DNA of 64,000 nt. Origin: an uncultured Acidobacteriota bacterium. Its GTDB lineage: Bacteria; Acidobacteriota; Thermoanaerobaculia; Gp7-AA8. The stretch lies in assembly GCA_937870635.1 (NCBI GenBank), contig CALMZP010000084.1, positions 1 through 64,000 of the forward strand, in the 5' to 3' direction. How positions within the stretch are numbered: the first letter of the stretch is position 1; each line of letters begins with the position of its first letter. A program made the position numbers and the translations under genes. The notes beneath the pieces are model-generated. The model saw only the letters and a program-made list of their open reading frames with translations, ran no database searches and was not told the DNA's origin. Below, one piece after another: positions 1-64,000 of the stretch.

Positions 1-279
1 GTACAGGAGCGGGATTTCAGCCAGTCCCCGCGCCACGTCGATCCGCACCTTTTCGAGCAAGTCCATCGCGCCCTCGGAAGTCGTGATCATCTCGGCGATG
101 TCCACGCCTTCCTCGAAACGGATGTCAGTCAGCCCGCCGTCCTCGGCAAGCGCATCCACGATCATCTCGGAGATGAGGAGTTCCTGCATGACATCCCCGG
201 AGTTGATCGCGTCCTTCCACGCCTTCTCCTGGGACTTCTTGTCCATCACGTTCCAGTAAGGCGAAGTAGCTGCACTCAT
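1..279 (-). CDS. Probable major capsid protein, N-terminal 93 residues (runs off left edge)
   Basis: The reading frame is open from an ATG at 277-279 to the window edge, giving 93 residues without a stop. The start is fixed by GGAGGAAACTGACA directly before the ATG. The N-terminus is acidic and helical and ends in VARGLAEIPLLY, the kind of segment that leads into the first capsid strand in many phage major capsid proteins. The gene follows portal, head protease and a DUF2190 cement protein, which is where a capsid gene is expected. No diagnostic motif is visible in the fragment, so the call rests mainly on position. Confidence 0.55.
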   Translation of the reverse strand, partial: MSAATSPYWNVMDKKSQEKAWKDAINSGDVMQELLISEMIVDALAEDGGLTDIRFEEGVDIAEMITTSEGAMDLLEKVRIDVARGLAEIPLLY

Positions 280-299
280 TGTCAGTTTCCTCCTCTCTC

Positions 300-662
300 C
301 TAGTTGATGCTGTCCACGAGGATGACTTCGGCGTAGCCGTCCGCATCCTTCGTCGCACAGACCTTGACAACCGGCGTGCCTGTGACAGCCGCCGTCAGGT
401 CGGTGTCACCGCGCTTCGTGCCCGCGCCCGCCGTCCAGTAGAGCAAGTCGCCCACGGCCGGGGTGAGCGCGCCGGGGAGCTTGATGTTCCACCGCCGGTT
501 GAGCGCGATTTCAAGCGCGCGGCCCCGGTTTGTTGCAGCGGCCGTGCAGTCGTTCAGGAGAAAGCCGGTGAAGCCTGAAATCCGGTAGAGATCACCGTGA
601 TCGTAGGTTCCGGCCGGAACGACGACATCGACTGCCTTTGCGTCACCGATCAGGTTGCCCAT
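300..662 (-). CDS. Capsid cement / decoration protein, DUF2190 family
   Basis: 120 residues. The pattern is that of DUF2190 head proteins: a start of type M-x-N, a VVVPAGTYDHGDLYRI segment near residues 13-28, FLLNDCTAA near 36-44, and a late VGDLLYW strand. Family members bind outside or stabilise the capsid shell. The gene sits directly upstream of the capsid gene. A strong ribosome site, GAAAGGAAGGTGACAAAAG, precedes the ATG at 660-662. Confidence 0.7.
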   Translation of the reverse strand: MGNLIGDAKAVDVVVPAGTYDHGDLYRISGFTGFLLNDCTAAATNRGRALEIALNRRWNIKLPGALTPAVGDLLYWTAGAGTKRGDTDLTAAVTGTPVVKVCATKDADGYAEVILVDSIN

Positions 663-680
663 CTTTTGTCACCTTCCTTT

Positions 681-1340
681 CTAGCTCTCGTCGCCGTTTC
701 CGTCGCCGCCCTCGGCCGCGAACTCGGCTTCCTTGTCCGCGAACGCCTTTTCAGCCGTCGCGTAATCGACCTCTGCCGCGCCGTACACACGGCGAAGCTC
801 GGCCAGCGCGTCGGCGTCCTCGGCGTCCTCGATGGCGCTGACCCAATCGGAGGCGTCGAGTCCCTTGGCGTCCTCGATCTCCTTTTCAGCGTCCTCGACA
901 CGCTTGCGAAGCGCCTTCTTGTTGCCGGACTCCGCGAGGCCCATCGCGCGAGCCTTGGTCTGCCAGTTGGCCTTCGACCACTCGTCGCGCTTGTCATCGT
1001 CGAGTTCCGCAACCTCGCTCTGCGCGTGGGCCTGCATGGCCTCCTCGGGCGTGAGCGTGGACTCGATGTTGACAACCTCCGAAATCGATGCCGATTCCGA
1101 GTTCGGAGCCTCACGGACGGACTGCCCGTAATCCTCCGAGACGGGAACGAGCGCCTGATAGACAGGCACCAGCCGTCCGGCCATCGTCTCCGGGTTCGGT
1201 GATGCGTACCCCGGCGGACTGACAACCACCGGCTTCAGTGTTGCGGCCATCTCCTGATCCTCCTCTCGGAAGGACGGCTCCAACTTGCCAGGCTGTGACT
1301 GGAACAGTCCTTCAGCGTGCGGGTCGAGATTCTGTGCCAT
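681..1340 (-). CDS. Head-region protein of unknown function, acidic C-terminal helices
   Basis: 219 residues from the ATG at 1338-1340, preceded by GAAAGGAGAAACTGAAA; an upstream in-frame extension lacks a ribosome site and overlaps the previous gene. The first 90 residues are Pro/Ser-rich and look extended (VVVSPPGYASPNPET). Around residues 140-165 a helical stretch ending GLAESGNKKALRKRVEDAE resembles a SAP-type DNA-binding motif, and an acidic tail ends in GGDGNGDES. It lies between the protease/scaffold gene and the cement gene, so an internal head protein or scaffold is plausible. I do not recognise a family. Confidence 0.6.
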   Translation of the reverse strand: MAQNLDPHAEGLFQSQPGKLEPSFREEDQEMAATLKPVVVSPPGYASPNPETMAGRLVPVYQALVPVSEDYGQSVREAPNSESASISEVVNIESTLTPEEAMQAHAQSEVAELDDDKRDEWSKANWQTKARAMGLAESGNKKALRKRVEDAEKEIEDAKGLDASDWVSAIEDAEDADALAELRRVYGAAEVDYATAEKAFADKEAEFAAEGGDGNGDES

Positions 1341-1359
1341 TTTCAGTTTCTCCTTTCGC

Positions 1360-2511: not shown

Positions 2512-2513
2512 CT

Positions 2514-3414: not shown

Positions 3415-3564
3415 TCACCTTCTCCTTCTACGACGACGAACTCTCTGACGACCGACCTTTGCTGCGACCTGCTTGGGGTTTTTCATCCCCCTGCGTCTGC
3501 GACCGTATCTGCGACGGTGTACGGACTTTTTCAGCCGAATCTTGCGCGGCCTGCCGCTACGCAC
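3415..3564 (-). CDS. Arginine-rich 49-residue peptide (protamine-like)
   Basis: GTG at 3562-3564, overlapping the last codons of the homing endonuclease gene, with AGAGAGG five bases before it. Of 49 residues I count 20 Arg and 6 Lys; the C-terminus is a run of Arg (VRRRRRRR). Such composition is typical of nucleic-acid condensing peptides. The position between portal and head protease suggests a packaged internal peptide, but no homologue is recognised. Its first two residues (M-R) match those of the endonuclease upstream. Confidence 0.5.
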   Translation of the reverse strand: MRSGRPRKIRLKKSVHRRRYGRRRRGMKNPKQVAAKVGRQRVRRRRRRR

Positions 3565-4003
3565 ATACGCCTCTCTGATTCAACACCGACATCGCTGTGG
3601 CGATCTCGTTACGAACACGTCTGACTTCCTCAGAGACACGATGTACGCGCGTACCCTTGACTGACAAAGTTTCGATGAACCGCAATGCAAGTTCCGCCTG
3701 TGTGTTCTTGACAACCATGTACGGCAATGCGGCCTTCAGGACTGACTTACACGCCTTACCACGAATCTCCCATGCGTAGACAGTACGACGAGGAGCGCCC
3801 CGATCTCGCCAGCTAACGCTACCGCCGTCAAAGTGGTTGTCTAGCCACAGGATCAGGTCAGGGTTGGTATTTGTCACTTGAACGGTCAGCGACCACGCAT
3901 CCTGATCTTCACGCCCCGGCCCTTGGTTCTTTTTCAGTACGCTGATCGAACCCTCACAATCGAGGGTAGCGGCCAAATACGCTCTGACGGTTGCTGTCCT
4001 CAC
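3557..4003 (-). CDS. LAGLIDADG-family homing endonuclease, downstream of portal
   Basis: 148 residues with one LAGLIDADG-type motif, YLAATLDCEGSISVL (residues about 9-23), then a beta-rich DNA-contact region and a C-terminal helix region (YMVVKNTQAELALRFIE) shared with the other single-motif endonucleases here. Single-motif proteins act as homodimers and cut a pseudo-palindromic target. In the motif Asp-Cys-Glu-Gly replaces Asp-Gly-Glu-Gly, and the usual aromatic Gly-Phe is Ala-Thr, so activity is uncertain. GTG start overlaps the portal stop (GTGA). Confidence 0.8.
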   Translation of the reverse strand: MRTATVRAYLAATLDCEGSISVLKKNQGPGREDQDAWSLTVQVTNTNPDLILWLDNHFDGGSVSWRDRGAPRRTVYAWEIRGKACKSVLKAALPYMVVKNTQAELALRFIETLSVKGTRVHRVSEEVRRVRNEIATAMSVLNQRGVCA

Positions 4004-5586: not shown

Positions 5587-6170
5587 TCCGTACCTCTCGC
5601 TTCCGAGACGAGGGTTTCAAGCTCCGTGACCATCGCAGCGACCTTCTGCTGCGTCTCGATGGGCAACCCTTCGAGCTTGCTCCAAAAGTCGTCACTCATG
5701 TCATGCTCGTTCTTCTTAGTGACAACCGATTCCGACTTGTTGACCTTTGCGATGCCGCCACGATCCAGGGCCGACTCGATTGCGCGCAGCTTCACGGACT
5801 CGTCTACGGCCGTGCGCGCGAGTTCAAGCAGCATCTCGATCAGGTCGATGTTGTGGCGCTTCAGGTGTTCGATTGCGCCGTCCGTAATGTCACCGGCGAC
5901 CTTGGCACACATCTGTTGCCACGTCTCATCCTCTGCCCACGCCTTGACAAGACTGCCCTGGATGTTGAGCGTGTCGGAGATGTACCGCCACGACCACCCT
6001 GCGGCTTTCAGCGTTGCCGAGTAAGCCTGTGCGTAAGCAAGCTCGGCCGCTGTCAGTTCCGAGAGATCAGTGATCTTCTTCGACTTGCGCCTACTGAAAA
6101 TCGCTGACCCGTGCTTGTTGCGCGGGCCGACGACTTCGAGGAGACGTTCTGCGTCTGTGCGCCTAGGCAT
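5583..6170 (-). CDS. Putative terminase small subunit
   Basis: 195 residues. A helix-turn-helix-like segment, LKAAGWSWRYISDTLNIQ followed by GSLVKAWAEDETW (about 54-85), would fit DNA recognition by a small terminase; the second half is helical and could oligomerise. It lies between large terminase and portal and overlaps both. The gene order large-then-small is unusual, which lowers confidence; it could be another packaging or head protein. Confidence 0.5.
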   Translation of the reverse strand: MPRRTDAERLLEVVGPRNKHGSAIFSRRKSKKITDLSELTAAELAYAQAYSATLKAAGWSWRYISDTLNIQGSLVKAWAEDETWQQMCAKVAGDITDGAIEHLKRHNIDLIEMLLELARTAVDESVKLRAIESALDRGGIAKVNKSESVVTKKNEHDMSDDFWSKLEGLPIETQQKVAAMVTELETLVSEARGTE

Positions 6171-7875
6171 GTGCGACTACGCTCCCTGAACGGTGAAAAA
6201 GATCACCGATGGATGCGGGGACAATCGTGTGCGGCTTCTTCATCGTGGCGATCTCGCAGAACATGTCCGCGTGGTGCCAGTGATCCGGGTTCTTGTTTTT
6301 CATCCAGCGGCGGACGTTACGGCCCTTCGTGTCCTCCTCCTCCGTCGCCGCCATCTGACAAAGCTGGTACATGTAGCCGTTGTACGGAAGGCGCGGCATG
6401 TTCTCACCGATTGTCTCCACGTCCATCGGCATGAGCATCCGGCCCATCATCATCCGGTTGATGAACATGTCGAAGGCGTCGGTGCGGTCGATGTTGACCT
6501 TGCCGACCTCGCCAGGCTTGGGCGAATTGAAAACGCCTGTCTCTGCCTGATCGGGGCGATCCTGCTCGAACCCGATCCAAACGCGCTTGTGATACTTCAG
6601 CGCGAGCCGCTTGGCCTCAGACTTTTCAGGGTGCGCATCGATGACGCAAGTGAAAGAGCCGAGTCCTGCAAGGAACTCGTCAAGCTGCTTCCACATGTCC
6701 TTCCCCGGCTTGTCAGCCATGATGCGCGCTTGCCAGAAAACTCGACGGTCGAAGCGGTCGAGATAGTCGGCGCGCACGTGAAGGACATTGCCGACATCGA
6801 CGCCGACGTAGATGGCCCCTCCTGGGATGCCCCCCTGTGACAATCCCCCCTCGATGCACTTGCGGATCAGTTCGGGTGTGATCTGATCGCCGGCGCTGAC
6901 AAACGGCTCGCCTCGGTTGTTGTTGAACCAGGCCCGCAGCTTCTTCGGTTGCGTCTGCCCGAGAAAGTAGTTGTCCATGAACCCGGCGATTGTCTGCGTG
7001 GGTGAGTGAAGCTGGTTGATGTGGTACCCACGCTTTCGACCACTCGGGTTGTCAGACTCCCACTGACCGAACTCGTTGGCCGCAGCCCGTTGGATGTCAG
7101 TGATCTCCTTCTTGCAGTACGCGCAGCGAACCTCGCACGCCTCGGCTGTATCTCCGATGGCGACGTTCTCCTCGACGGTGAATGTCTGCCTGCGTGAGCA
7201 ATGCGGACAGGGCACGTACCACCTGTGCTGATCGCTCGCGTGCCAGGCATCCTCGGCGTCAACGCCGTGGCCTGGTGCGGTCGGAGTTGACAACTCCGTC
7301 TTGCGCTTGATGGCGGAGCCGTCGAGCCGCGCCATCGCCTCGGGGATGTTGTCCTCGATCATCTTGTCACGCTCGTCCATGACAAGCACATCGGACGGAA
7401 TCTCTCGAAGCTCCGTCCAGATGTTCGTCCCTCGGATGCGTAGCGCGATGTCATCGACCGTCTGCTTGTGAAGCCGGTTGTCAACCGACTTGAACATGTC
7501 AGACAATCCGGGGTTGGACGCGATGATCGGATCGATCCGGCCCTGGACAAAGGGGATGGCTCCCGTTTTCAGCGGCATCAGGTACAGGTGATGCCAGCGC
7601 CTTTTCACGATCCAATGGAACGTCCTGACAAGGAAAATCGTTGTCAGGCCCATCTGAGCACCCTTGGGCACGATGATCCAGTCGGACTCGTCGCGGATGA
7701 TGTCGCGCTGGAACTCGCGGCCCCGCATGTCAAAAGGATGTCCGTCTACTCTCAGCTTCAAGAGATCGGCCCAGGCATCCGGGTAGACGGCCGCGTTCGC
7801 GCGTGCCGAAAGACCCCCGCTGGTTGTGGCGGAAAGCCGCTTGGTTCCGTGGTTTTTCGCTGTTTTCCGGGCCAC
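6163..7875 (-). CDS. terL: Terminase large subunit, GpA-like
   Basis: 570 residues; the packaging ATPase and nuclease. Walker A-like VPKGAQMGLTT at 69-79 and Walker B SDVLVMDERDK at 161-171 are of the lambda GpA type. A zinc-binding pair, CPHC (223-226) and CAYC (251-254), is inserted as in GpA proteins. The nuclease domain begins with IYVGVDVGN (Asp360) and continues with VIDAHPE (Asp413) and a late Asp near NPDHWHHADMF. The GTG start at 7873-7875 lacks a clear ribosome site, and the true start could lie slightly downstream. Confidence 0.88.
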   Translation of the reverse strand: MARKTAKNHGTKRLSATTSGGLSARANAAVYPDAWADLLKLRVDGHPFDMRGREFQRDIIRDESDWIIVPKGAQMGLTTIFLVRTFHWIVKRRWHHLYLMPLKTGAIPFVQGRIDPIIASNPGLSDMFKSVDNRLHKQTVDDIALRIRGTNIWTELREIPSDVLVMDERDKMIEDNIPEAMARLDGSAIKRKTELSTPTAPGHGVDAEDAWHASDQHRWYVPCPHCSRRQTFTVEENVAIGDTAEACEVRCAYCKKEITDIQRAAANEFGQWESDNPSGRKRGYHINQLHSPTQTIAGFMDNYFLGQTQPKKLRAWFNNNRGEPFVSAGDQITPELIRKCIEGGLSQGGIPGGAIYVGVDVGNVLHVRADYLDRFDRRVFWQARIMADKPGKDMWKQLDEFLAGLGSFTCVIDAHPEKSEAKRLALKYHKRVWIGFEQDRPDQAETGVFNSPKPGEVGKVNIDRTDAFDMFINRMMMGRMLMPMDVETIGENMPRLPYNGYMYQLCQMAATEEEDTKGRNVRRWMKNKNPDHWHHADMFCEIATMKKPHTIVPASIGDLFHRSGSVVAHA

Positions 7876-7949
7876 TGAAAAGGTACGGCGTTTGTGCCGT
7901 CGATGTCAGTGTACCCCGCCGCTGTCAGCCCAAAAAGAGAGGGCCGGGT

Positions 7950-11865: not shown

Positions 11866-12549
11866 AGGCTACGCAGCCACCGCTCGAAGTTCTCGTTGCA
11901 CAGGCACATGGACGAGCGAGAGCCACGGACGAGATCAATGGCCTGATCCGCCGTCATGTCCCACCCGAGTCATGAGCGCCCGAGCGATGACGAGCGAGGA
12001 GCGATTCAACCCCGCCTGACAATGAACGAGGACACGCTGGCCCATCTTCACGCACAGAGCAACCGAGTTGGCGAGCGAGTCGATCTGCTGCTTGTCAGGC
12101 TCCCCGTGACCGTCGTACATTTCGACCTCTTGGTATGTCACCCCATCCGGGACGTTGTAGCTCCCCCACGGGTAGAGGTTGAGGATCGCGTCGAAGCGCG
12201 GCCTACGCTCGACCACCATGAATGTCATGTCGGAGTCGTTGACGCGCTGCTCTGTCTCGGCCTCCTCGTACAGCCAGTGACAATCGACTGGCAGCCCGCT
12301 TCGGTGGCGAGCCTCGAACTTCAGAAGCAGCGCATACGGCACGTTGCCAAGCTGGTACTCGTACCGTTCCAACTCGTCGGGGAACTCGGCAGGCGAACAG
12401 CCCTGCCAGAGTGTGTCGATCACTTGACTGAAAAGCGGAACCTCGAAGAATCCGGCCCCGAGCGCCATCGCGGCGTTGCCACGCATGATCGGAAACGGCA
12501 CCTTCTCCGTGTCCGCCACTTTGTCAGGATTTGGTTCCAAGTCGGCCAT
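11862..12549 (-). CDS. Dual-specificity phosphatase, frameshifted near C-terminus
   Basis: Start ATG at 12547-12549 behind GAAGGGAGGCCGG. The protein carries the CX5R signature VHCQAGLNRSSLVIARAL (Cys177, Arg183) and an upstream Asp-rich loop (YDGHGEPD, about 145-152) that could supply the general acid. The frame then hits a stop at 11935, but the +1 frame continues with MTADQAIDLVRGSRSS and NENFERWLRSL, the usual C-terminal helices of DSPs, and ends at 11862 overlapping the next start (GTGA). So the original gene ran to 11862; one base has shifted near the GGG run at about 11962-11973. The catalytic part is intact. Confidence 0.65.
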
Positions 12550-19190: not shown

Positions 19191-19985
19191 CTACCGCTTC
19201 TTGCGGCTCGCGGCCGACTTGCGCCCTGCGGCCGACTTCTTGGCGGCGGGCTTCCGGCTCGCGCCGCTCTTGCGGCCCTGTGCGGGCTTCTGAGCGGGCT
19301 TCCGGGTCGCCCCGGCCTTCTTGCCACCCGAGGACTTGCCGCCGCTCTTGGGCGCGCTGGACGCCTTCGAGCGGGTGGCCCCCTGGTGCTGGCCCGTGTC
19401 CTTCACGAAATCGAACTTGACGCGGGAGATGTGCCACCGCAGGAGGGTCTGCGCCTCGGCCTTCGTGCGCTTCTTCCCGTCCTCCGTCTTGGGGTACATC
19501 TTCTGCGCGTTGTCACTCAGGGCCGCGAACACCTTGTCCACGTTCCCCTTGAACTTGCGCAGCGACTTCATGATGACCTCGCGGTTGCCGCCGGACTTGC
19601 CGACGTTGCTCTCGGCCGTCCAGTCGATGCTCGCGTTGTCGATCCCGACGCGGCCCGCACCGCCAGAGGAAGGCCGCTTCGCCGTGTTGCTCTTGGCAGG
19701 TGCCTTCTTCGCGGTGGACGCGCTGGACTTCTTCGCGCTCGACTTCTTGGCGGCGGGCTTTGTCACCTTCGCGGCCGACTTGCGACCGCTCGCCGTCTTG
19801 GCCCCCGCCGACTTGCGGCCGGTGCCGTTCTTGCCGGACTTGCTCGCGGCCGTCTTGCCGCCGCTCCCGGACTTGCCCTCCGCGCGCTTGATCGCTGCGC
19901 GAAGCTCGTCCTGGCTCATGGCCTTGTAGCCCTCGATGCCGAGCTTCTTGGCCTTGGCGCGAAGCTGGATGCTCTCGTTCGCCAT
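19191..19985 (-). CDS. Histone-H1-like / AlgP-like nucleoid protein
   Basis: 264 residues from ATG at 19983-19985 (GGAAGGTGATTGAC upstream). Residues about 5-35 (QLRAKAKKLGIEGYKAMSQDE) form a SAP/Rho-N-like DNA-binding motif. Two Lys/Ala/Ser/Gly-rich low-complexity arms (about 38-105 and 190-264, repeats of AAKKS and RKSAASRK) flank a folded middle (DNASIDWTAESNVGKSGGN ... LLRWHISRVKFDF). This is the architecture of H1-like DNA-compacting proteins such as AlgP or the tails of mycobacterial HupB. Driven by a near-consensus promoter, so probably abundant. Confidence 0.7.
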   Translation of the reverse strand: MANESIQLRAKAKKLGIEGYKAMSQDELRAAIKRAEGKSGSGGKTAASKSGKNGTGRKSAGAKTASGRKSAAKVTKPAAKKSSAKKSSASTAKKAPAKSNTAKRPSSGGAGRVGIDNASIDWTAESNVGKSGGNREVIMKSLRKFKGNVDKVFAALSDNAQKMYPKTEDGKKRTKAEAQTLLRWHISRVKFDFVKDTGQHQGATRSKASSAPKSGGKSSGGKKAGATRKPAQKPAQGRKSGASRKPAAKKSAAGRKSAASRKKR

Positions 19986-20028: not shown

Positions 20029-20058
20029 AGTATATGCACACGCTCCCGCCTTTGTCAA
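20029..20058 (-). promoter_or_regulatory. Near-consensus promoter of the histone-like gene
   Basis: TTGACA (20053-20058), 18-base spacer, TATACT (20029-20034); the best promoter match in the window. The start codon of the H1-like gene follows about 45 bases downstream. Confidence 0.75.
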
Positions 20059-20067
20059 ACGGTTCTT

Positions 20068-21217: not shown

Positions 21218-21218
21218 G

Positions 21219-21702: not shown

Positions 21703-22005
21703 TCATCCTCCATTCTTCCGGGGTCGCCCCGGACGTAGCGTTGACAAAATCTGCTCGATCTCCCTGACACGGCCAGGCGAATAAAGCCTGACAGTGATCT
21801 TCCCGATGCGGTGTCGCGCAGGCTCGGGAATCGTGCCTCGGCGTTCGAGCTTGCGCAGCCAGGACTCGTCCTTGTTGACCCTGACTGACAATTCTCCGAG
21901 CGTCAAGTAGTCCGCGAACTTCGGCGGCTTCAGATGCTCGACCTTGATCGGCTTCGGTTCACGCAGGACAGGCCCGCGTCTTTTTGTCACTGTCTTGCGC
22001 GCCAC
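21703..22005 (-). CDS. MerR/excisionase-like helix-turn-helix protein
   Basis: 100 residues from GTG behind AGGGAGCTAG. TLGELSVRVNKDESWLRKLERRG (about 35-57) followed by IPEPARHRIGKITVRLYSPGRV is the layout of winged helix-turn-helix proteins of the MerR/excisionase class. Basic N-terminus. Probably a DNA-binding regulator; target unknown. Confidence 0.55.
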   Translation of the reverse strand: MARKTVTKRRGPVLREPKPIKVEHLKPPKFADYLTLGELSVRVNKDESWLRKLERRGTIPEPARHRIGKITVRLYSPGRVREIEQILSTLRPGRPRKNGG

Positions 22006-26406: not shown

Positions 26407-26909
26407 GCCAGCTTGTCCAGGCACTCGTCGCAGTACGGGGGATCGGCCTCGGCCTCGACCACCTGCGCCTGCGAGCCTCGAATGACATCCACCATCTTGT
26501 CAGCCAGGGCGCGGAAGGTATGTCCGCGCTCGGGGCCACTCAGGATCAGGAAGTCCGGCATGGCGTCCACGTTCGAGATCAGCGCGTCGTAGACCACCTG
26601 ACGCATCTCGTCGGCGGGGACATGGATCGTGTGCTTGGTCGTCCGAGTGAAAACGTCGAACGCACGGAACATGACTTCACCGGCGCGGTCAGCGTCATGG
26701 CACAGCTTGACCCACTCCTCGCGGTACTTGTCAGGGACGAGTCCGTTCTTCCCCTCGAACTTCGGATCGCCCATGCGGTCGGTCAGGAGCGCGTGCTTTG
26801 CCGACGCCTCCGCGAACGCACGGAAGGTTCGGTGCTGCATGGAGTCCGGTTCGAGCGTACCGAGGAACGTCGTGTGATCCGGGTCGATTGTCAGCTTCTT
26901 CTTACGCAT
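26403..26909 (-). CDS. Unknown protein with C-terminal CxxC
   Basis: 168 residues; FLGTLEPDSMQHRTFRAFAE near the start, a central helical region, and a C-terminus ending PPYCDECLDKLA (half a zinc site). Sits between the methyltransferase and the resolvase. Family unknown. Confidence 0.5.
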   Translation of the reverse strand: MRKKKLTIDPDHTTFLGTLEPDSMQHRTFRAFAEASAKHALLTDRMGDPKFEGKNGLVPDKYREEWVKLCHDADRAGEVMFRAFDVFTRTTKHTIHVPADEMRQVVYDALISNVDAMPDFLILSGPERGHTFRALADKMVDVIRGSQAQVVEAEADPPYCDECLDKLA

Positions 26910-27759
26910 TCGGCTTCACCACCTTTCGCTGGCCGCTCCGCTCGGGGACTTCCCAATCGAGGCCACGCAGGTTGTCAATGGAGACGGACTTCTTGACGAT
27001 CTCGGTCTTGCGTCCCTTTTTCATCGGAACCTCGATGTGAACCTTCCGGTTCTTCTGCCCGACAACACGGACACGGATCGGCGTGATCGTCTTTTCGAGG
27101 TAGAAGTATTCCTCGTCCTTGACAATCTCCAACCCACCGATCCCCCGAATCACCCCGTCGTTCTTGTCAGCCACGTTCGGAGAACCGGGCTTCGTGAAGT
27201 TCGACTGATTGAACGGCTCGACCGGCACGCCATGAGCGCCAAGGCGCACCCATCCCTCACGCGGCTTGACATCCCCGCGCGAGAACAGTTCGAGGTACGG
27301 GCCAGGTGACAACGCCTCGACGCGCTCGGTGATGTCCGGCTTCACCGAATCGCCCCGCCACGGCCCCGTGATCTCCGTTGAGATCGCCCCAGGCTGGACA
27401 CGCTTTTCAGTCGAACGCGCGGCGAGGATGCAATGCTCCGTCCGCGAACGCAGCCACCACCCGAGGCCGAGCTTTGTCTTGCGCCACGTACCCATCGTCT
27501 TGTACGTGAACCCCCACGCCTTGACAACTTCCAACGCCATCTCTAGCGCCGGGTTCGTCGTCCACAGGTGCAAGTGCCCGTCCGGGTGGATGATGTCGCC
27601 CACCGGGATCGCGCAGATTTCAGCCAGCGACATCCGGTCGTAATGCTGCCGGTGCCCCATCGCAAACTGCTTCTTGTTTTCAGGCTCGAAGGGCCACGGC
27701 GGATCGGCAATGATCGTGCCGAACTGAACGCCCTTGGGAAGCTCGAACCGGACGCTCAA
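26902..27759 (-). CDS. MT-A70 family N6-adenine methyltransferase
   Basis: About 285 residues from a TTG that overlaps the upstream stop (TTGA); a GTG 24 bases further upstream is also possible. GTIIADPPWPF (DPPW at about 19-22) is the catalytic motif of the MT-A70 class; GHLHLWTTN, FTYKTMGTWRKTKLGLGWWLRS and KPDITERVEALSPGPYLELFSRG (the late AdoMet-binding strand) follow in the family's usual order. A C-terminal extension of about 100 residues is basic and beta-rich. Likely methylates adenine in DNA; the recognition sequence is unknown. Confidence 0.8.
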   Translation of the reverse strand: MSVRFELPKGVQFGTIIADPPWPFEPENKKQFAMGHRQHYDRMSLAEICAIPVGDIIHPDGHLHLWTTNPALEMALEVVKAWGFTYKTMGTWRKTKLGLGWWLRSRTEHCILAARSTEKRVQPGAISTEITGPWRGDSVKPDITERVEALSPGPYLELFSRGDVKPREGWVRLGAHGVPVEPFNQSNFTKPGSPNVADKNDGVIRGIGGLEIVKDEEYFYLEKTITPIRVRVVGQKNRKVHIEVPMKKGRKTEIVKKSVSIDNLRGLDWEVPERSGQRKVVKPNA

Positions 27760-37564: not shown

Positions 37565-38044
37565 TTACTTCTTCTTCTTGGCAGACGACTTCTTGCCCGA
37601 CGACTTGCCCTGCGACTTCACGCGAGCGGCCTTCTGCTCCTCGGCCTCGCGTGCTGCGGCCCGCTCTGCGGCCTTCTTCTGCCGCTCCTTGGCCTCCTTG
37701 ACAAGCCGCTTGCCCACCGGCGAGTCGAGATCGGGGAGCGCGTCCTTCACGGACGTTCCCACCGTGGCCTTCACGCGGAGCTTGGCAGGCTGCGGATCGG
37801 CCCACTTCTCCTCGCCGGGATTGTCACGATCCGGCACCTTGCGCTTCGGCTTCGCGGGCACGCCGCTCGGGTTGATCGTCACGATCTTGAAAAGGGGAAC
37901 CTTCAGCCCCTCCTCGATGACCTCCTCGACCACGGCACGCAGCGAAGCAACGAAGTCCTGAGCGTTCTTCTTCGGAATGCGAAGCTCGTCCTCCATCGTT
38001 TCGAGCGTGCGGTCAAGAAGCTGGCTCTGTGTAATGCTTGCCAT
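37565..38044 (-). CDS. HU/IHF-like histone protein with Lys-rich tail
   Basis: 159 residues from ATG at 38042-38044. The first 105 residues fold as HU: QLLDRTLETMEDELRIPKKN, DFVASLRAVVEEVIEEGLKV (helix 2), then VPLFKIVTINPSGVPAKPKR, DRDNPGEEKWADPQPAKLRV and ATVGTSVKDAL. The arm carries KPKRKVPDRDNPG, the place where HU has its Arg-Asn-Pro tip. A C-terminal tail (AAERAAAREAEEQKAARVKS ... GKKSSAKKKK) resembles the tails of mycobacterial HupB. Packs or bends phage DNA. Confidence 0.75.
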   Translation of the reverse strand: MASITQSQLLDRTLETMEDELRIPKKNAQDFVASLRAVVEEVIEEGLKVPLFKIVTINPSGVPAKPKRKVPDRDNPGEEKWADPQPAKLRVKATVGTSVKDALPDLDSPVGKRLVKEAKERQKKAAERAAAREAEEQKAARVKSQGKSSGKKSSAKKKK

Positions 38045-38143: not shown

Positions 38144-39352
38144 CTACTTCTTTTTCTTCCCTCCGGCCTTCTTGCCACCGGACTTCTTGCCGGACTTCCC
38201 GACCGGCTCGGGAAAGACAGACGCGAGCATGTCGTCGTCATCGTCCTTCGCGGCCGAGATCGTCACCTGCTGGCCCTCCTCGAAGTCGGAGATGTCAAGC
38301 TCCGACCAGTCGCGGCCGTTGTCATCCTCACCGGCATCGAGGAAGAACAGATCGAACTCCGTCCCGTCCTCCATCTCCACGGTCAGGGTGTCCTCGTCCG
38401 TGTTGACGGCCTTGATCGTGACAACCTCGCTGTCCACGGAGTCGGGCACTTCGCCCTCACCATCCGGGTCGTCCTCGGTCGCCTCCTCGGCCTCGGACAC
38501 CACGAAGTCGCCATCCTCGTCCTTCTCGAAGCTGACAACCAGCTTGGTGCCCTTGCCGTAGTCGGTGAGATCGACCTCATCGGTGCCGTAGATGTCGAAC
38601 TCGTCCGACTCGCCCGCCGTCACGGTGAGGATGTTGTCCTTCTTCTTCAGCTTGACAACCTCGACCGTCAGACCCTCGCCCTCTGGCTCCTCCTCCGGTT
38701 CCTCGTCGGCGGGCTTGCCCTTCTTGGCCGACGACTTCCCGCTGGACTTGCCCGAGGACTTCTTCTCCTTCTTGTCCTCGTTGTCATCCTCGTCGGGGTC
38801 GTCCTCCTCCAAGGCGCTCGCGGCATCGACTTCCTTCAGGGCGCGACGCATCTGCTTGGTGGCGATGTCCTCCAAGTAGTCGTCGTCGATCTCCTTCAGC
38901 GCCTTGTTGAGTTCCGTCTTTGTCAGCTTCTCCTTCTTGTCACGAATCGAGAACTGCCCGTTCCCCTCCATCTTCGTGATCTTGAAAAGCTGGCCGAGGA
39001 CGTTGTCACCCTCGGACACCATCTCGCGGAACTCCTCCGCGACGTAGTAGTTCATGTTGAACACCTTGATCTCCCCATCGACCAGCCACAGCGTCTTGGC
39101 GCGAGTGGAGGGGTTGTCACCCTCCTCGCACAGCGGGCAGTCGTCGCCGGGGCACGGGCAGTACCCGGTGGCGGGGGTGTAATGCTCGAAGTATTCGTAG
39201 TAGCCGGGGTTGTCACTCAACTCCGGGTCGGGCAAGAACAGCGCGTTGCCCGTGAATGAGTCCTTCACCTTTTTCAGCGTGATGAACCCACCACGGCCTG
39301 CGTTCCGATCCTCGTTGGAGCGGACGCGACGAGGCTTCATCGTGTTAGCCAA
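38144..39352 (-). CDS. T4 gp32-like single-stranded DNA-binding protein
   Basis: About 402 residues from a TTG (GGAAGGTGGCTC upstream). The start GRGGFITLKKVKDSFTGNAL leads into a zinc site GYCPCPGDDCPLCEEGDNPS followed by KTLWLVDGEIKVFNMNYYVA, the layout of phage gp32-type SSB with an OB fold and zinc knuckle. The long C-terminal half is acidic (SALEEDDPDEDDNEDKKEKK), interrupted by repeated beta modules (TVEVVKLKKKDNILTVTAGE) and closed by KKSGGKKAGGKKKK. Much longer than T4 gp32; the Lys tail is odd for an SSB, whose tails are normally acidic. Confidence 0.65.
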   Translation of the reverse strand: MANTMKPRRVRSNEDRNAGRGGFITLKKVKDSFTGNALFLPDPELSDNPGYYEYFEHYTPATGYCPCPGDDCPLCEEGDNPSTRAKTLWLVDGEIKVFNMNYYVAEEFREMVSEGDNVLGQLFKITKMEGNGQFSIRDKKEKLTKTELNKALKEIDDDYLEDIATKQMRRALKEVDAASALEEDDPDEDDNEDKKEKKSSGKSSGKSSAKKGKPADEEPEEEPEGEGLTVEVVKLKKKDNILTVTAGESDEFDIYGTDEVDLTDYGKGTKLVVSFEKDEDGDFVVSEAEEATEDDPDGEGEVPDSVDSEVVTIKAVNTDEDTLTVEMEDGTEFDLFFLDAGEDDNGRDWSELDISDFEEGQQVTISAAKDDDDDMLASVFPEPVGKSGKKSGGKKAGGKKKK

Positions 39353-40394
39353 GAGCCACCTTCCTTTCACGTTTCGGGCTTTTCACCTTCGGACTTACTC
39401 CACGCTCCCGCAACCTCCGCTTGAACGCGGTCATCGACAATGCCGTGTCGATAGCGTGACTCGCCTCCTTCCTTGTCAGTTCTGCCGGGTCTGCTTTGCC
39501 TTTCGGGTACAGGCAAACGAATAGCGGACACTTTGTCAGTTTCGAGGCAGCGAGTTCGGTGTTCCTGATCCCCGCGCCGTCTTTGTCGAACATGAAAAAG
39601 ATTCGGCGGGGTCGAAGTGACCGAATGATCTGCGCCTGCCTGTCTGACAAACCTGTTCCGAGAATCGCCGTGGCCTGGATGCCCATTCCCTGCAACCGGA
39701 TCGCGTCGAGCGAGCCTTCGCAAAGAACGAGGCCGTGAGAGGATACCTGCTTCCTGTCGAGCTTGCAAGCCCCGAATAGCAGGGCCGTCTTGACGGCACC
39801 CTCGGGCCAGTAGAGGTACTTCGGCCAGTCCTTCGAGCGGATCGCCCGCTTGATCAGGAACCGGCTGATCCCGCGCTCGTCGTCGGCGGGAATGACAATC
39901 CGTCGTTCATCCGCGTCCCACCCAAGCCCCCACGTGGAGATCGCTGCTGCGTCGATCCCTCGCGCTGACAGGTATTCAAGTGCAACAGGAGGCAGGTAGG
40001 TAGAAAAGTCGTCCAACCGAGCGACCGCGTTTTCATCACGATCTCCGATGGCGGCTCGTCTAACGCGGCCATCAGCGCCCCGAGACTTCCGCTTGGAGCC
40101 AGGCCCAAGTGAGACTCGCGTGTGCTGAACGATGACCTTGCGAGCTTCTTTTTCACTGATCCCCTTGACTAGCGCGATGGCCTTCTCGTAGGTGCCCGAG
40201 ATGCCGCACAGCGCGAAGCAATGCACCAACGGCTTTTCGAGGTTGATCTGAAAATGCTTCTTGGTCGATCCATGATCGGGGTTCGGGCACACAACGAGGG
40301 GCGCAAACCCGCCTGACAGATCAGCGTTGGGCGGGAAGTCAACGAACTCCTCCCACAACGCAACCGCGTCCAACTTTCGCCCACGGTAATTCAT
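39345..40394 (-). CDS. dnaG: DnaG-like primase with Toprim domain
   Basis: 349 residues. Zinc-binding N-terminus: VVCPNPDHGSTKKHFQINLE with Cys36, His41, Cys59 and Cys63 (HCFALCG). Toprim: LVLCEGSLDAIRLQGMG (about 218-234) and RIFFMFDKDGAGIR (about 262-275), with catalytic Glu and DxD-type Asp. Synthesises RNA primers. Its first 9 residues, MNYRGRKLD, are identical to those of the homing endonuclease encoded just upstream but use different codons; the ATG overlaps that gene's stop (ATGA). Confidence 0.85.
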   Translation of the reverse strand: MNYRGRKLDAVALWEEFVDFPPNADLSGGFAPLVVCPNPDHGSTKKHFQINLEKPLVHCFALCGISGTYEKAIALVKGISEKEARKVIVQHTRVSLGPGSKRKSRGADGRVRRAAIGDRDENAVARLDDFSTYLPPVALEYLSARGIDAAAISTWGLGWDADERRIVIPADDERGISRFLIKRAIRSKDWPKYLYWPEGAVKTALLFGACKLDRKQVSSHGLVLCEGSLDAIRLQGMGIQATAILGTGLSDRQAQIIRSLRPRRIFFMFDKDGAGIRNTELAASKLTKCPLFVCLYPKGKADPAELTRKEASHAIDTALSMTAFKRRLRERGVSPKVKSPKRERKVALG

Positions 40395-52800: not shown

Positions 52801-52802
52801 TG

Positions 52803-57582: not shown

Positions 57583-59778
57583 TCACCTACCTCCCGGTGC
57601 GCGTCGCTGTGTTTTCTGCTGACCCCTGAAGCGAGGCGCAGGCTGAACATCGATCAGCTTGACCGGCACAAACGGCTCGCGGTCTGCGATGCGAAGCAAC
57701 TTGTCAAGCGTCGGAGTAGTAACGATCTTCACAGTCGTACCACCTTCGACTGTGATAGCCTGCTGTGCCCCACCTGCACGCGCTGGAAGCCCACGTGCCA
57801 AGCGTGACAAACGAAGTTCGGCTGTCTCGGCTGAAATGAACCGGCGAGTGAACGCGGTAAGGATACGCTGCTGTTCCTCACTCGGCTGACGCCGGAATGA
57901 CAATCCAGTAGCCCGTCGCGAGCGCCCAAGCGACCGAAGCAACGGGAAATCGCCATCGGGCACTTCACGTGCGCCGCCTGCCGCGATCTGGCGATCCATA
58001 AGACGGTCTGAAAGCTCCTGAGAGAGCGCAGGAGTGGCGAGGAGGGCCGTAGTAGCCGCGCCGCCTTTCAGGGCCATACGCCAGTTCCTACGCGCCCACA
58101 GAGGCACAAATGGAGGCACGTCTGTCCCGTCACCCTTGGTAGCCGTCGCTGAAGGTGCGCCAGGCATGAACCAAGAGAGCGGGTCGATGACAACCCAATA
58201 CGGGTTCGCGCGAGAGCCAGAACGCTGCTGACCTTCGCCGGTCGCTGAAAATGCACCGAGGCCCGATCCAATGACCGACGCAGCGGCAAGCTGTGGCGCA
58301 CGCTGCGCGAGGCCAGGGAAGCGCCCTGCGAGGCCACGCAGGCCAGGGATGCGTGCGATGCCGCGTCCGGCGAGGCCCGCAAGCCCCGTCCCGAAGATCA
58401 GTCGCGATGCAAGCGCCGCGCCACCGGCTGCGCCAACTGCCCCAGTGACAGCCGAGGGATTCCGACCGGTGATCCACTCTCCGAGCCGGTTGATCTGCTC
58501 CACGATGGGACGCAGCGCTGGATCGGCACCGCGAGCGACTGTCAGTCCAACGTTCCGCTGAATCTGACCAAGCTGCTGATACGCACGCTGCCGATTACGC
58601 TGATCGGCCATTTGCGCACCGAGGTTTGCGTCCTTTGCGTCCTCGATGCTGTCGATGAAATCTTCAAGCGCCTGTGTTCCACCCTGCGCCATCAGATTGA
58701 GGAACTGCCTGAAAGACTCCTGCTGACCGAACAGTTGCGAGGCCAGCGTCAGATTGATCCCGGTTCCTCCCGCCGCAGCGATAGCAGCTTCGGGTGACAA
58801 CCCTTCTACTCCAAGCGCCTGCGGGTTTGTAAACCGTGCGCCGCCCGGAGCTACCGCCTGCATCATCCGCTGAAGAATCTGAAAACCACCAAGCTCGCGC
58901 AGCCTTGTCGGATCAGTAGGCAGGCCCGCTCGCCTGAAAGCTGACAACTGCTTCTCGGTCTGCGGGCGAATGATCTCGTCCGCGAGAAGCTGTGTGACGC
59001 CACGGCCGATGACAGCCGGGGAACCACCCGAGCGAGCCGCGAGGCCGTAGACCGCCCAAATCTCCTCGGGTGACATTCGTGCTGCCGTCTGTGCTGCACC
59101 GAGACGGCCGATGTCACGCGCGATGTCCTCACCACGAACGGTCGGCGTGGACTGAAGCACCTGCGCAATGATGTCACGCATCCTCGGTGCCTGCCGCGCG
59201 ATGTCGATTTTCTGGCCCGGTGGCGTTGCACCGATGATCATGCCCGCGATGCCGCCGCCGAGCGCCTGCGGATCGGCACCCTCAGCGAACATCGTGATTT
59301 CAGCCATCGTGTCCGCGTACTCCCGCAGCATTGTCAATCCCTGACGGCCACGAACGTCGTCCCCGAAGGACGAGTAGAAGCGGATCATGTGCTGCTGGAT
59401 GTCATCCACCGCGACCCCGAAGGTGTTACTCAGGTTCACGGCGATGTCGCCCACGTCATTCAGATCGCGGCCAAGCGTTGTCAGACGCCCACCCTGATCG
59501 ATCTTCCCCGCGAGGGCATCGATTTCACCCAAGCGGTCGAGGAACTGGCCGAGGCCGGTGACGGCAGTTGCAACGCCGTACACCGTGGCCCCGGCCAGCG
59601 CGTACCGGATCGTGGTTCCGACCGCGCGCATCTGCTGGCCCCACAGGCCCAGGTTGCGCGTGTGCGAGCGCACCTGCCGGTCGAAACCGACAAGCCCGCC
59701 GATGTTGCGCTCGATGTCAGCGCGAAGCTGCGCACCGTGCGAAGTCCAGATCAGATTGAGTCTGTAGTCAGACGACAC
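57583..59778 (-). CDS. Tape measure protein
   Basis: 731 residues from GTG at 59776-59778. Sequence begins VSSDYRLNLIWTSHGAQLRA; a phage minor tail / TMP pattern with helical and Ala/Gly-rich stretches, FGVAVDDIQQHMIRFYSSFG, AARSGGSPAVIGRGVTQLLA, AVTGAVGAAGGAALASRLIF (hydrophobic). Follows the chaperone genes. The shared start M-S-S with the endonuclease upstream uses different Ser codons. Short for a tape measure, implying a short tail. Confidence 0.8.
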   Translation of the reverse strand: MSSDYRLNLIWTSHGAQLRADIERNIGGLVGFDRQVRSHTRNLGLWGQQMRAVGTTIRYALAGATVYGVATAVTGLGQFLDRLGEIDALAGKIDQGGRLTTLGRDLNDVGDIAVNLSNTFGVAVDDIQQHMIRFYSSFGDDVRGRQGLTMLREYADTMAEITMFAEGADPQALGGGIAGMIIGATPPGQKIDIARQAPRMRDIIAQVLQSTPTVRGEDIARDIGRLGAAQTAARMSPEEIWAVYGLAARSGGSPAVIGRGVTQLLADEIIRPQTEKQLSAFRRAGLPTDPTRLRELGGFQILQRMMQAVAPGGARFTNPQALGVEGLSPEAAIAAAGGTGINLTLASQLFGQQESFRQFLNLMAQGGTQALEDFIDSIEDAKDANLGAQMADQRNRQRAYQQLGQIQRNVGLTVARGADPALRPIVEQINRLGEWITGRNPSAVTGAVGAAGGAALASRLIFGTGLAGLAGRGIARIPGLRGLAGRFPGLAQRAPQLAAASVIGSGLGAFSATGEGQQRSGSRANPYWVVIDPLSWFMPGAPSATATKGDGTDVPPFVPLWARRNWRMALKGGAATTALLATPALSQELSDRLMDRQIAAGGAREVPDGDFPLLRSLGRSRRATGLSFRRQPSEEQQRILTAFTRRFISAETAELRLSRLARGLPARAGGAQQAITVEGGTTVKIVTTPTLDKLLRIADREPFVPVKLIDVQPAPRFRGQQKTQRRAPGGR

Positions 59779-60139
59779 TGAAAACCCCCGCTTCGATAGC
59801 TTCAGCGACTTCCAGCGCCGCTTCACGCTTGAGGATCAAATACGGCGTGATTCTTTTCAGGATTGTCAGAATGTCCTCACGCCGATTGATCGCAAGCACG
59901 CGCATCTCTCTCGTCCCGTATGCCTTCCTGCTTTGTCTGGCAATTCTGCTCTTGCACACGATCCCACCCGCGTTCAAGAACGCTTCGAGCGCATGAATAA
60001 CGTCAGCCGATTTGTCAATCTGGCCCCAAGTGATCTGAAAGTGGATGCGTTCCTTTTTGTCAACCCACCACAGAATCGACCCATCGCCGTCTGTAAATCC
60101 TGCGACGTAGGCCCATGTCATCGGTTTGGCGCTACTCAC
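59768..60139 (-). CDS. LAGLIDADG homing endonuclease at the tape-measure start
   Basis: 123 residues from GTG. MSSAKPMTWAYVAGFTDGDG contains the motif (about 10-22); then ILWWVDKKERIHFQITWGQI and PYLILKREAALEVAEAIEAG. Glu is replaced by Asp in the motif (DGDG). It overlaps the tape measure start by 11 bases. Sharing of MSS with the tape measure protein suggests capture of that gene's start. Confidence 0.8.
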   Translation of the reverse strand: MSSAKPMTWAYVAGFTDGDGSILWWVDKKERIHFQITWGQIDKSADVIHALEAFLNAGGIVCKSRIARQSRKAYGTREMRVLAINRREDILTILKRITPYLILKREAALEVAEAIEAGVFSVV

Positions 60140-61752: not shown

Positions 61753-62220
61753 TCAGTTCCTCCCTTCGGGAAGGTACGCACGAATACCATTCCCACGATT
61801 CGTTTCGCCCGAAGCGAGTCGGGCCTTGACTTCCTCGATTTTCAGTTCAGCCTCGATCAGCGCGTCCATGACTTCGTCATGCTTGATCCGAACCCACGGC
61901 TCAACCTTTGTCAAGAATGTCACCGTATTGCGAAACCCGTTCACCGCCAGCGCATACGAACCCGCATGGCCTTTTGCAACTCTGTCAGGTCGTGAATGAA
62001 CCTCGACTGCGCTACTGATTCCCCGTCTAGCGAGGAAGTCTTGGATTTCATCCAGCAACTCACGCGAGTTCTGATAGAACTTCACGCGCCAACGAAAGTT
62101 GCGACCGGCCTTGTGCGATCCACTGGATTGCCAGCGACAATCGACGCATCCTTCTCCGTCGAAGAAACCAGCCACGAACGCCCATGAGAGTTCGCGTTTG
62201 GTTTCTCGCAACCATGCCAT
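61753..62220 (-). CDS. LAGLIDADG homing endonuclease at the tube gene start
   Basis: 155 residues, ATG behind GGAGGAACTGACAAG. MAWLRETKRELSWAFVAGFF is followed by DGEGCVDCRW (motif about 13-26); VKFYQNSRELLDEIQDFLAR and PWVRIKHDEVMDALIEAELK follow. The first residues M-A-W-L equal those of the tube protein with other codons, and both genes share the same 13-base ribosome region GGAGGAACTGACA. Confidence 0.85.
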   Translation of the reverse strand: MAWLRETKRELSWAFVAGFFDGEGCVDCRWQSSGSHKAGRNFRWRVKFYQNSRELLDEIQDFLARRGISSAVEVHSRPDRVAKGHAGSYALAVNGFRNTVTFLTKVEPWVRIKHDEVMDALIEAELKIEEVKARLASGETNRGNGIRAYLPEGRN

Positions 62221-62244: not shown

Positions 62245-63363
62245 CTAGACGGCGATCTGAAGCTGTGCGTCCACGAGGATCGTCTGGATGCCGCGCACGA
62301 CCTCGCCCTTGTACGTGACGGTGACAGAACGACCGTCCGCCGAGCTTGTCACCGCGACGAAGTAACCACTATCACCATCCGGCTGCGGGAGAGGCTTGAT
62401 CCAGTTCGACCGCTCGGAAAGCAGCGCCTCGACGCCCGCCTTCAGATCGTTGCGGTTTGCCAGGGTGTTGCCCCGGCGCAGGAAGTTGTTGCCCTCCACG
62501 TAATCCCGAACGTCGATGAAAAGCTGATCCACGATCAGCCTTGTCATCAGAGCGTCCATCGTGGAGTCCACCGTGTACGTCGTGCGAAGGTGCGTGACCT
62601 CCACGCCTCCGTTGCGGCCCCGCCGAAGCGGCGACACACCGCCGACAAGCAGCGTCTCGAAGTCGTTGACCGGCACCCCACCCGTCACCTTGATCCTGAA
62701 AAGCGGGTAGCCGGAAGCATCCCGCTCGACATCCGTGAAGGCTGCGAGCGAGAGCGTATCGAGATCGTCTGACAAGTCGGCGTTCTTGGCGACCTCTGCC
62801 GCCACCGCCGCCGCTGCAAACGCGCCCGAGCGCAACGTGCCTGCCTCGTCATAGATGCCGGGAGCGACGAGGACTGCACGCTTGGATGCGATGGCCCCTG
62901 CTGCGGTGATCAGGTTAGCCGACGAGGTTGCCGTCGCCATTCCGACGAAACACACCTGCTTGTTCTGAATCAGATCCGCGTTTTCACACGAATCGGCCAG
63001 GGCGACATGATCGGCCTGAGCAATCGAGTCCGTCAGGCGAACTCGAATGTCAGGATCGCTTTCGAGAATCGCCCATGCCGTCTGACGCTGTACGAGCGTC
63101 GGTGCTGCGCCCGAGGCCGACGCAATCGCCGTGACCTCTGGAACCCCCCGACCAAGGAGGAACTTGACAATTGCAGCCAGGGGCGATGCTGCCCCAAACT
63201 GCGTGTCCGCCTCCGAAGGCCGAGTGATTTTCACCGGAACTGCGACCGCCGCCGAACCGATTGCCGCCTTTTCACCCTCCACGCCAATCGGCAGGAAAAG
63301 CTCCTGGCTGAAACGCGGCCCGAGGCTGGTTGCGTCCTTGACTTCCGGGTACAGTTGCGACAT
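62245..63363 (-). CDS. Contractile tail sheath protein
   Basis: 372 residues. PEVKDATSLGPRFSQELFLP, KAAIGSAAVAVPVKITRPSE, AVLVAPGIYDEAGTLRSGAF and EALLSERSNWIKPLPQPDGD are in the layout of phage sheath proteins; the C-terminus VRGIQTILVDAQLQIAV ends in the strand that joins the next subunit. Proves a contractile tail together with the gp25/J/tube order. Start MSQL is identical to that of the endonuclease upstream, fully recoded. Confidence 0.75.
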   Translation of the reverse strand: MSQLYPEVKDATSLGPRFSQELFLPIGVEGEKAAIGSAAVAVPVKITRPSEADTQFGAASPLAAIVKFLLGRGVPEVTAIASASGAAPTLVQRQTAWAILESDPDIRVRLTDSIAQADHVALADSCENADLIQNKQVCFVGMATATSSANLITAAGAIASKRAVLVAPGIYDEAGTLRSGAFAAAAVAAEVAKNADLSDDLDTLSLAAFTDVERDASGYPLFRIKVTGGVPVNDFETLLVGGVSPLRRGRNGGVEVTHLRTTYTVDSTMDALMTRLIVDQLFIDVRDYVEGNNFLRRGNTLANRNDLKAGVEALLSERSNWIKPLPQPDGDSGYFVAVTSSADGRSVTVTYKGEVVRGIQTILVDAQLQIAV

Positions 63364-63377
63364 TTTTCACTCCCTTT

Positions 63378-63788
63378 CTAGTTGCTTACCCGTAGAGGGG
63401 CTGGAACAGAAGTGACATGTCGCAGCCACCACTTCCCATGCTCCTTTTTCAGTTTCCTGACTTCTCGCATGTATCGCAAGCACTCCTCGGCCCTCGCCTT
63501 CTTGACGATCAGATGCGGTGAAAGTCTTTTCAGCACGTACTCAACGCTATCGAACTCACTGATCTGAACATCACGCTGACCTGTTTCTGCAAGTGGGCGC
63601 AGGTACGTGAGGACACCCGCTGTTTCAAGGAACTCGTTTATTTCATCGAGAACCCAGGATTGAACGCCATTCTGCGAGATGGAAAGCCTGACCGCTGACG
63701 GAGGCTGGCCGGGGTTCTGCCGCGCCACAGAAATGCAGCCTTCTCCGTCGAAGAAGCCCGCCAACCACTTCCATGACAACTGGCTCAT
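63378..63788 (-). CDS. LAGLIDADG homing endonuclease at the sheath gene start
   Basis: 136 residues, ATG behind GAAGGGAGTGAAAG. MSQLSWKWLAGFFDGEGCIS holds the motif (about 8-20), then SISQNGVQSWVLDEINEFLE and PHLIVKKARAEECLRYMREV. The Met-Ser-Gln-Leu start equals that of the sheath, with Ser AGC/TCG, Gln CAG/CAA and Leu TTG/CTG. Expected to cut the sheath gene 5' end of relatives lacking it. Confidence 0.85.
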   Translation of the reverse strand: MSQLSWKWLAGFFDGEGCISVARQNPGQPPSAVRLSISQNGVQSWVLDEINEFLETAGVLTYLRPLAETGQRDVQISEFDSVEYVLKRLSPHLIVKKARAEECLRYMREVRKLKKEHGKWWLRHVTSVPAPLRVSN

Positions 63789-63803
63789 CTTTCACTCCCT
63801 TCG

Positions 63804-63998
63804 TTATCCCGTGATCGTCACGTTGCCGTCGATGACATTCTGCGGGTCTTGCTCGATCCCATCGATGAAGGTGATGGGTGCCTTCTTTGTGCGTGAGTAG
63901 ACGCGAACACGAAGCTCGATGTCCACTACCCTGAAAACGGGTAGATCGTTGATCCGATCGTTCACGCTCTGTCCTCCTGAAAACGACAGGATTTCCAC
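63804..63998 (-). CDS. Unknown small protein at the right edge (start uncertain)
   Basis: Either 64 residues from a GTG at 63998 (MEILSFSGGQSVNDRINDLP) or 53 from a GTG at 63963-63965 behind AGGAGGACAGAGC. In the second case the reading frame GWKSCRFQEDRA, ending at 63962, would be the last codons of a gene entering from the right edge and overlapping by GTGA. C-terminus FIDGIEQDPQNVIDGNVTIT. A head-tail connector is likely by position; family unknown. Confidence 0.45.
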   Translation of the reverse strand: MEILSFSGGQSVNDRINDLPVFRVVDIELRVRVYSRTKKAPITFIDGIEQDPQNVIDGNVTITG

Positions 63999-64000
63999 CC

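Follow-up and report, generated by a model that had tools for sequence, protein, structure and literature searches.

The TTKTCA array of a phage contig

The window, by which we mean the whole stretch of 64,000 bases analyzed here, corresponds to bases 1–64000 of contig C84 (70,839 bp), one of the 171 contigs of a metagenome-assembled genome (MAG) with a total of 4.5 Mb. Tailed-phage genes were identified on C84, namely those for terminase, portal, baseplate and tape-measure proteins, DNA polymerase III alpha, a DnaB-like helicase, a DnaG-like primase and RecA, and nearly all genes of the contig lie on one strand. The two ends of C84 have 20 bp in common, which makes it probable that the contig is an entire phage genome, closed as a circle. 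The MAG that contains it may or may not represent the host of the phage, and the rest of the same assembly was used for comparison. The subject of our analysis is a six-letter word, TTKTCA (TTGTCA or TTTTCA), which recurs throughout C84 as a dense array. Relatives of the phage were obtained by terminase and polymerase searches of IMG/VR, which identified G1 (3300043499_000058), G2 (3300044720_000021), G3 (3300005329_000002) and about 60 further contigs. A 24-kb stretch of C84, compared with 50,697 phage records, matched none at the nucleotide level.

Direct counting identified 337 copies of TTGTCA and 200 of TTTTCA in the window, 18.7 and 16.9 times the numbers expected from base composition. 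Across the whole of C84 there were 593 TTKTCA words (369 TTGTCA and 224 TTTTCA), that is 8.4/kb, 17–18 times chance, with a mean gap of 119 bp. The hand counts of the initial annotation, made on both strands of three samples (1–3000, 20041–23040 and 50041–53040), were exact, with 16, 21 and 18 copies of TTGTCA and 7, 9 and 4 of TTTTCA. The genome-wide enrichment that it described is refined here as a property of the phage contig and not of the remainder of the assembly, in which about 1,707 TTKTCA in 4.45 Mb corresponded to about 0.38/kb, ~22-fold fewer.

The excess was not predicted by a third-order Markov model of the whole contig (119 TTGTCA and 50 TTTTCA expected versus 369 and 224 observed), and in a maximal-order Markov test the two words ranked first and second among hexamers (252 and 142 expected). 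An equal enrichment of unrelated hexamers was ruled out with 35 unrelated phage loci, in which the best non-palindromic word reached at most 9-fold and a Markov z of at most 5, compared with up to 38-fold and a z of up to 17 within the clade of C84. The word is also sharply defined. One-letter neighbors mostly occurred at about the chance level or below it (TTATCA 0, TTCTCA 11, TTGTTA 1, TAGTCA 5), and the only ones strongly enriched were ATGTCA (5.8-fold), ATTTCA (4.0-fold) and TTGACA (4.5-fold), the last mostly through overlap inside TTGTCAA. The information in the flanks was no more than 0.14 bit in C84, G1 and G2, and in G3 and G9 an adjacent A alone was informative (0.5 bit). Bipartite or repeated sites were considered and rejected for C84, since close pairs were depleted and the single word of 6–7 bp had no second element within 30 bp.

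The suggestion that TTKTCA acts as a signal at the level of the DNA, and does not reflect codon or amino-acid use, was borne out by four lines of evidence: reading frames, orientations, non-coding density and a synonymous shuffle. Of the six possible frames the word occupied five, all except the one that creates an in-frame TGA stop, and it was present in both orientations (358 words on the forward strand of C84 and 235 on the reverse; sense TGAMAA 358, sense TTKTCA 235). Outside called genes its density was 9.3/kb versus 8.4/kb overall. When synonymous codons were shuffled with proteins and codon pools kept, 57 ± 7 coding words were obtained versus the 494 observed in C84, and G1 and G2 gave the same picture.

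Conservation was assessed between C84 and G1, which share 73% DNA identity over 47.7 kb. TTGTCA was the best conserved of 342 testable hexamers, with 64% of copies kept against an all-word mean of 25%. There was turnover too, as 39% of aligned words were not kept in place. Words less than 40 bp from a neighbor were kept at 0.43–0.49 versus 0.63–0.64 for isolated words at equal local identity. Local replacement of lost sites was looked for and rejected, in that G1 sites were no commoner near lost positions than at random positions, the array being dense everywhere. In total, the ~600 copies of the 6–7-bp word make up roughly 5% of all bases.

The words are evenly spaced. The coefficient of variation (CV) of the gaps between successive words was 0.65, compared with 1.00 ± 0.04 for a Poisson process (minimum 0.88 in 2000 simulations), and counts per 2 kb had a variance/mean ratio of 0.33. 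The pair correlation, with ATKTCA included, was 0.24 under 20 bp and reached 1 at ~60 bp, past which the hazard was flat, so that the array behaves like sites that repel one another within ~60 bp but are otherwise encountered at a constant rate. A similar repulsion length was found in five phages with different words (C84, G1, G2, G11 and G3). Evenness was strong in C84, G1 and G2 and clear in G3, G9 and G11, and the sites of C84 had no helical phasing. Taken alone, TTGTCA and TTTTCA were less even (CV 0.77 and 0.88) than jointly, and the subset values observed were reproduced when orientation or G/T was re-assigned at random, which indicates that the two words and the two orientations are equivalent. 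Likewise, when split by strand the words showed no greater evenness than randomly drawn subsets, and the evenness belongs to both strands pooled. A blind scan of all hexamers for those over-represented far from TTKTCA was led by ATTTCA (z 5.8) and ATGTCA (z 5.3) in C84, and ATGTCA came first (z 5.9) in G1; these near-cognate words fill gaps in the array.

The phage clade, its words and candidate reader genes

The clade comprises about 64 phage contigs, and nearly all of those with a terminase identity of at least about 45% had an enriched word. The trait was not seen in L110–L112, whose terminase identity is near 35%, or in more distant relatives. Inside the clade the signal was weak or absent in L052 (4 kb, GC 0.36, 1–2-fold), L070 (4.7 kb), L050/G005 (AATTACA at 12-fold only) and L096. 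On the terminase tree, most branches had ATTTCA (about 5–30-fold), often as AATTTCA, which is the form in G3 and G9, with ATTACA or ATTCCA as secondary words. L085/L090 had TTTTCA plus ATTTCA, C84 and G1 had TTGTCA and then TTTTCA, G2 had TTTTCA, and L048/L106 had a mixture of words; L103, on a long branch adjoining L048/L106, had TTGTCA and TTGGCA. The presence of different words across the tree, with the array retained, indicates a drift of specificity under a persistent array. These data give good support to the enrichment of the words, the selection on them, their even spacing, their independence of orientation, near-cognate substitution, clade-wide occurrence and drift; even spacing, the filling of gaps by near-cognate words, clade-wide occurrence and word drift are additions to what had been noticed in the initial annotation.

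Searches of genome contigs with the polymerase found no relative, and tblastn searches of named phages with genes 36 and 30 (Table 1) gave no match. Near the end of one clade contig, 3300005937_000414 (L165; ~7000–8116), an SSB-like gene runs into apparently unrelated cellular sequence. L165 is probably a chimeric assembly at the contig end and unfit for arguments from gene absence.

Three proteins of C84 are candidates for reading the word. The AlphaFold2 model of the gene 36 protein had a winged helix-turn-helix at a predicted local distance difference test (pLDDT) score of about 90, and its Foldseek matches were all of MerR type (CadR, CvkR, BldC and RacA; probability 0.9–1.0). In the gene 30 protein, residues 117–203 were modeled as a helical domain (pLDDT about 95) between long basic disordered stretches; this core had no convincing match among solved structures in the PDB, and some relatives of the protein carry AT-hooks in their basic linkers. 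Gene 60 of C84 had just a weak match to the phrog_379 DNA-binding protein family (E 4e-4), and the G3 orthologue at the same place is HU-like by eye. Wherever a motif-positive contig covers the region of genes 36 and 30, both genes were found, as was the case for ten contigs (C84, G1, G2, G3, G004, G009, G010, G011, G012 and G016, of which G004 and G016 are near-identical); four motif-negative records had neither gene. The two motif-positive contigs without the HU-like gene are truncated or partial; the end of G011 is truncated and probably chimeric.

Table 1. Features of C84 discussed in the text.
Feature	Position	Strand	Basis or remark
TTKTCA array, 537 words	1..64000	TTGTCA 194 +, 143 -; TTTTCA 133 +, 67 -	Direct count
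Near-cognate gap fillers ATGTCA (104), ATTTCA (47)	1..64000	.	Hexamer scan
Gene 36, 100-aa MerR-like winged-helix DNA-binding protein, conserved GRP (AT-hook-like) tail	21703..22005	-	Alignment of 9 homologues, AlphaFold2, Foldseek
Gene 30, 264-aa basic H1/HMGA-like protein	19191..19985	-	Rho_N/HeH-like N-terminus, K/A-rich disordered linkers, helical core 117-203
Gene 60, HU-like DNA-binding protein, basic C-terminal extension	37565..38044	-	Weak PHROG match, G3 orthologue, alignment
DNA polymerase III alpha	34184..37552	-	Replication module marker, served to find relatives
Terminase large subunit	6163..7875	-	Query for clade search and tree
DnaG-like primase (Toprim)	39345..40394	-	Weighed as word reader, disfavored
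MT-A70-type adenine methylase	26902..27759	-	Weighed as driver of the array, disfavored
Dual-specificity-phosphatase-like protein	11935..12549	-	PF00782
Small LAGLIDADG-like proteins	3557..4003; 59768..60121; 61753..62220; 63378..63788	-	Motif AGF(F/T)DGEG
Small LAGLIDADG-like protein, C84 beyond the window	65037..65501	-	Motif AGF(F/T)DGEG

The small LAGLIDADG-like proteins are paralogous, are encoded between virion genes and are probably homing endonucleases. The phosphatase-like protein was also found in G2. Many 6-bp palindromes were extremely avoided in C84, G1, G2 and G3: in C84, CGATCG occurred 4 times versus 204 expected, and GGCGCC, CCGCGG, GGATCC and GACGTC were absent. The pair GGTCC/GGACC occurred once in the window versus 91 expected, and together these deficits look as if they were the result of heavy restriction pressure. 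Unlike its sisters, G2 (L017–L020) was enriched in GAGCTC (160 versus 69 expected) and GGATCC (140 versus 74), and it nearly lacked GAGCTG/CAGCTC (1) and GAGGTG/CACCTC (0).

A putative phage chromatin and its alternatives

Based on these findings, we consider it rather probable that a putative phage-encoded nucleoid protein, which would bind double-stranded DNA in a sequence-specific manner, has the words as its sites. Of the candidates put forward in the initial annotation, the binding site of a phage nucleoid protein fits the data best. A single isolated word, with no second half within 30 bp, fits one DNA-binding domain, and an even, orientation-independent, genome-wide array points to a need at every ~100 bp, such as coating or condensation, nuclease shielding or a self label. 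The sites are genome-wide, even, orientation-independent and selected, as would be those of a sequence-specific nucleoid-protein array, for which the binding itself is predicted. In this model each copy of the word would recruit one protein unit, probably through one domain that reads 6–7 bp, and selection would have distributed about 600–750 sites such that they cover the genome at ~60–120-bp intervals. The array might act as sequence-directed phage chromatin that condenses, shields or marks the genome as “self”. The MerR-like protein of gene 36 may be the reader, perhaps with the H1/HMGA-like protein of gene 30, and if the specificity of the reader drifts, hundreds of words would turn over to match. 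The protein binding, the identity of the reader and the effect of binding are the parts of the model that we infer. For the further proposition that a phage protein and ~600 evenly spaced 6–7-bp words have co-evolved, and might form a drifting self-identity or packing code at ~100-bp resolution, we see the balance as even.

From its predicted fold, the gene 36 protein is the most likely reader of the word, an assignment that we make tentatively and with somewhat less than even confidence. It is favored because its fold is that of a sequence reader, because the size of the word fits one winged helix and because the site of BldC resembles the AATTTCA of G3 and G9. BldC, which is MerR-like, reads AATTXXXX(C) (PMC5859096).

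Several observations weigh against the chromatin model or against gene 36 as its reader. The effect of crowding on conservation was significant in just one of the two comparison directions, and evenness was weak in G10 and G16, such that strict spacing is not universal. The Foldseek E-values of gene 36 were modest (0.06 and above), and in the alignment of nine homologues its residue changes show no obvious correspondence to the change of word. In addition, the HU-like gene was also present in eight motif-positive contigs, and since gene presence follows phylogeny, co-occurrence says little in favor of a particular reader; L048/G004 and L106/G016, which are near-identical to each other, count as one.

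The same chromatin model with the HU-like or the H1/HMGA-like protein as the reader in place of the MerR-like one is an alternative that we regard as possible and on the unlikely side. The HU-like gene adjoins the polymerase gene in the eight contigs, and the ~60-bp repulsion would suit the large bending footprint of an HU-like protein. HU and IHF sites are bipartite or unspecific, however, whereas the word of C84 has no information outside 6–7 bp; its flanks are nearly uninformative, and no bipartite site of IHF type (about 13 bp or more) was found. Orthologues of gene 30 have AT-hooks and a conserved folded core of unfamiliar fold, but the G and C positions in the word require base reading beyond that of AT-hooks.

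That the word is a DNA-modification target of an enzyme of phage or host origin, dense for protection or recognition, was a candidate of the initial annotation that we now consider improbable. Type III and IIG methylases typically recognize non-palindromic 6-bp words, as TTKTCA is, C84 encodes an MT-A70 methylase, and the avoidance of most 6-bp palindromes indicates that restriction pressure is real. Yet an MT-A70 homologue was not detected in G1, G2 or G3, and no N6/N4 (PF01555) or C5 (PF00145) methylase was found in nine motif-positive relatives; a separate PF05063 search had no positive control. Protection does not require even spacing, and the usual fate of restriction sites is loss and not gain. 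A replication signal, either a primase initiation site, as also suggested at the outset, or a directional signal like Chi or KOPS, seems still less probable. A DnaG-like primase is conserved in the clade and the two orientations are unequal, but the even spacing ignores strand, and the excess of one orientation is explicable by open frames with genes nearly all on one strand. Known primase sites are of three bases, against six letters here. One word per 119 bp is also far denser than the Okazaki, Chi or KOPS spacing known from bacteria, and we know of none near that value.

Regulation of the stoperator kind, in which a repressor stops transcription by binding to sites dispersed over the genome, has in our view an equally slim chance. 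Mycobacteriophage stoperators are asymmetric, scattered phage sites with a consensus that drifts with the repressor (PMC6550527); the words of C84, by contrast, are in both orientations throughout although the genes are nearly all on one strand, are mostly inside genes and are far denser. Roles as promoter, terminator, stoperator, Chi/KOPS or primase site are disfavored in general because the clustering or strand bias that they predict was not seen. Short words are able to accumulate under mutation bias, but that the words are such a mutational or compositional artefact and serve nothing is hardly credible, given that TTGTCA is the most conserved of all hexamers, that spacing is even with close pairs depleted, that the synonymous-shuffle null was exceeded and that one-letter neighbors are absent.

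If the chromatin model is correct, several per cent of a viral genome, coding and non-coding, has been rewritten as a site array for one protein, and whole arrays changed their word during the divergence of the clade. This would be a naturally occurring example of a binding specificity and hundreds of sites co-evolving across a genome. It would also represent a possible mechanism of self/non-self marking or of genome packing in phages and provide proteins and sites with which to study the evolution of sequence-specific chromatin. Even with another reader, a drifting even array demands explanation beyond current phage biology.

Comparison with known systems

To our knowledge, there is no phage whose genome has been turned into an evenly spaced array of a single short word, and a search of titles and abstracts in the literature, which was not exhaustive, found no comparable array in phages. 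The phenomenon appears to be categorically new; for the mechanism our confidence is moderate. Stoperators number some tens per genome. Those of cluster A mycobacteriophages are asymmetric, phage-wide sites, read by a phage repressor, whose consensus drifts between relatives (PMC6550527, PMC9283540), and they are 13 bp long and mostly in one orientation relative to transcription (PMC6550527). The array of C84 is similar in having asymmetric sites genome-wide that drift among related phages. It differs in that the word is of 6–7 bp, present in about 600 evenly spaced copies and not confined to one orientation (358 versus 235).

DNA uptake sequences are cellular and linked to competence, longer than the word of C84 and about ten times sparser. 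In Pasteurellaceae and Neisseriaceae they are short, non-palindromic, over-represented in genic and intergenic DNA and described as evenly spaced (PMC1939737). Even spacing is thus shared with C84, whereas its word is denser and is enriched in the phage contig only, not in the rest of the MAG as would be expected of the genome of a competent cell.

From structural modeling, BldC and RacA appear to share the fold of gene 36. The element recognized by BldC is AT-rich with one additional C-G pair, and BldC binds direct repeats in the form of head-to-tail multimers (PMC5859096). In place of such a direct-repeat filament, C84 has single words with close pairs depleted and no repeat nearby. We know of no genome of a BldC or RacA bearer that is saturated with the word of its reader. 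The nucleoid proteins HU, IHF, SPO1 TF1, phi29 p6, Lsr2 and H-NS recognize DNA mainly through its AT content, its bendability or modified bases, and we know of none that has reshaped a genome into evenly spaced copies of one exact word. With these proteins the putative reader would share a role in coating or shaping the genome, and the clade of C84 itself encodes HU-like and H1/HMGA-like proteins.

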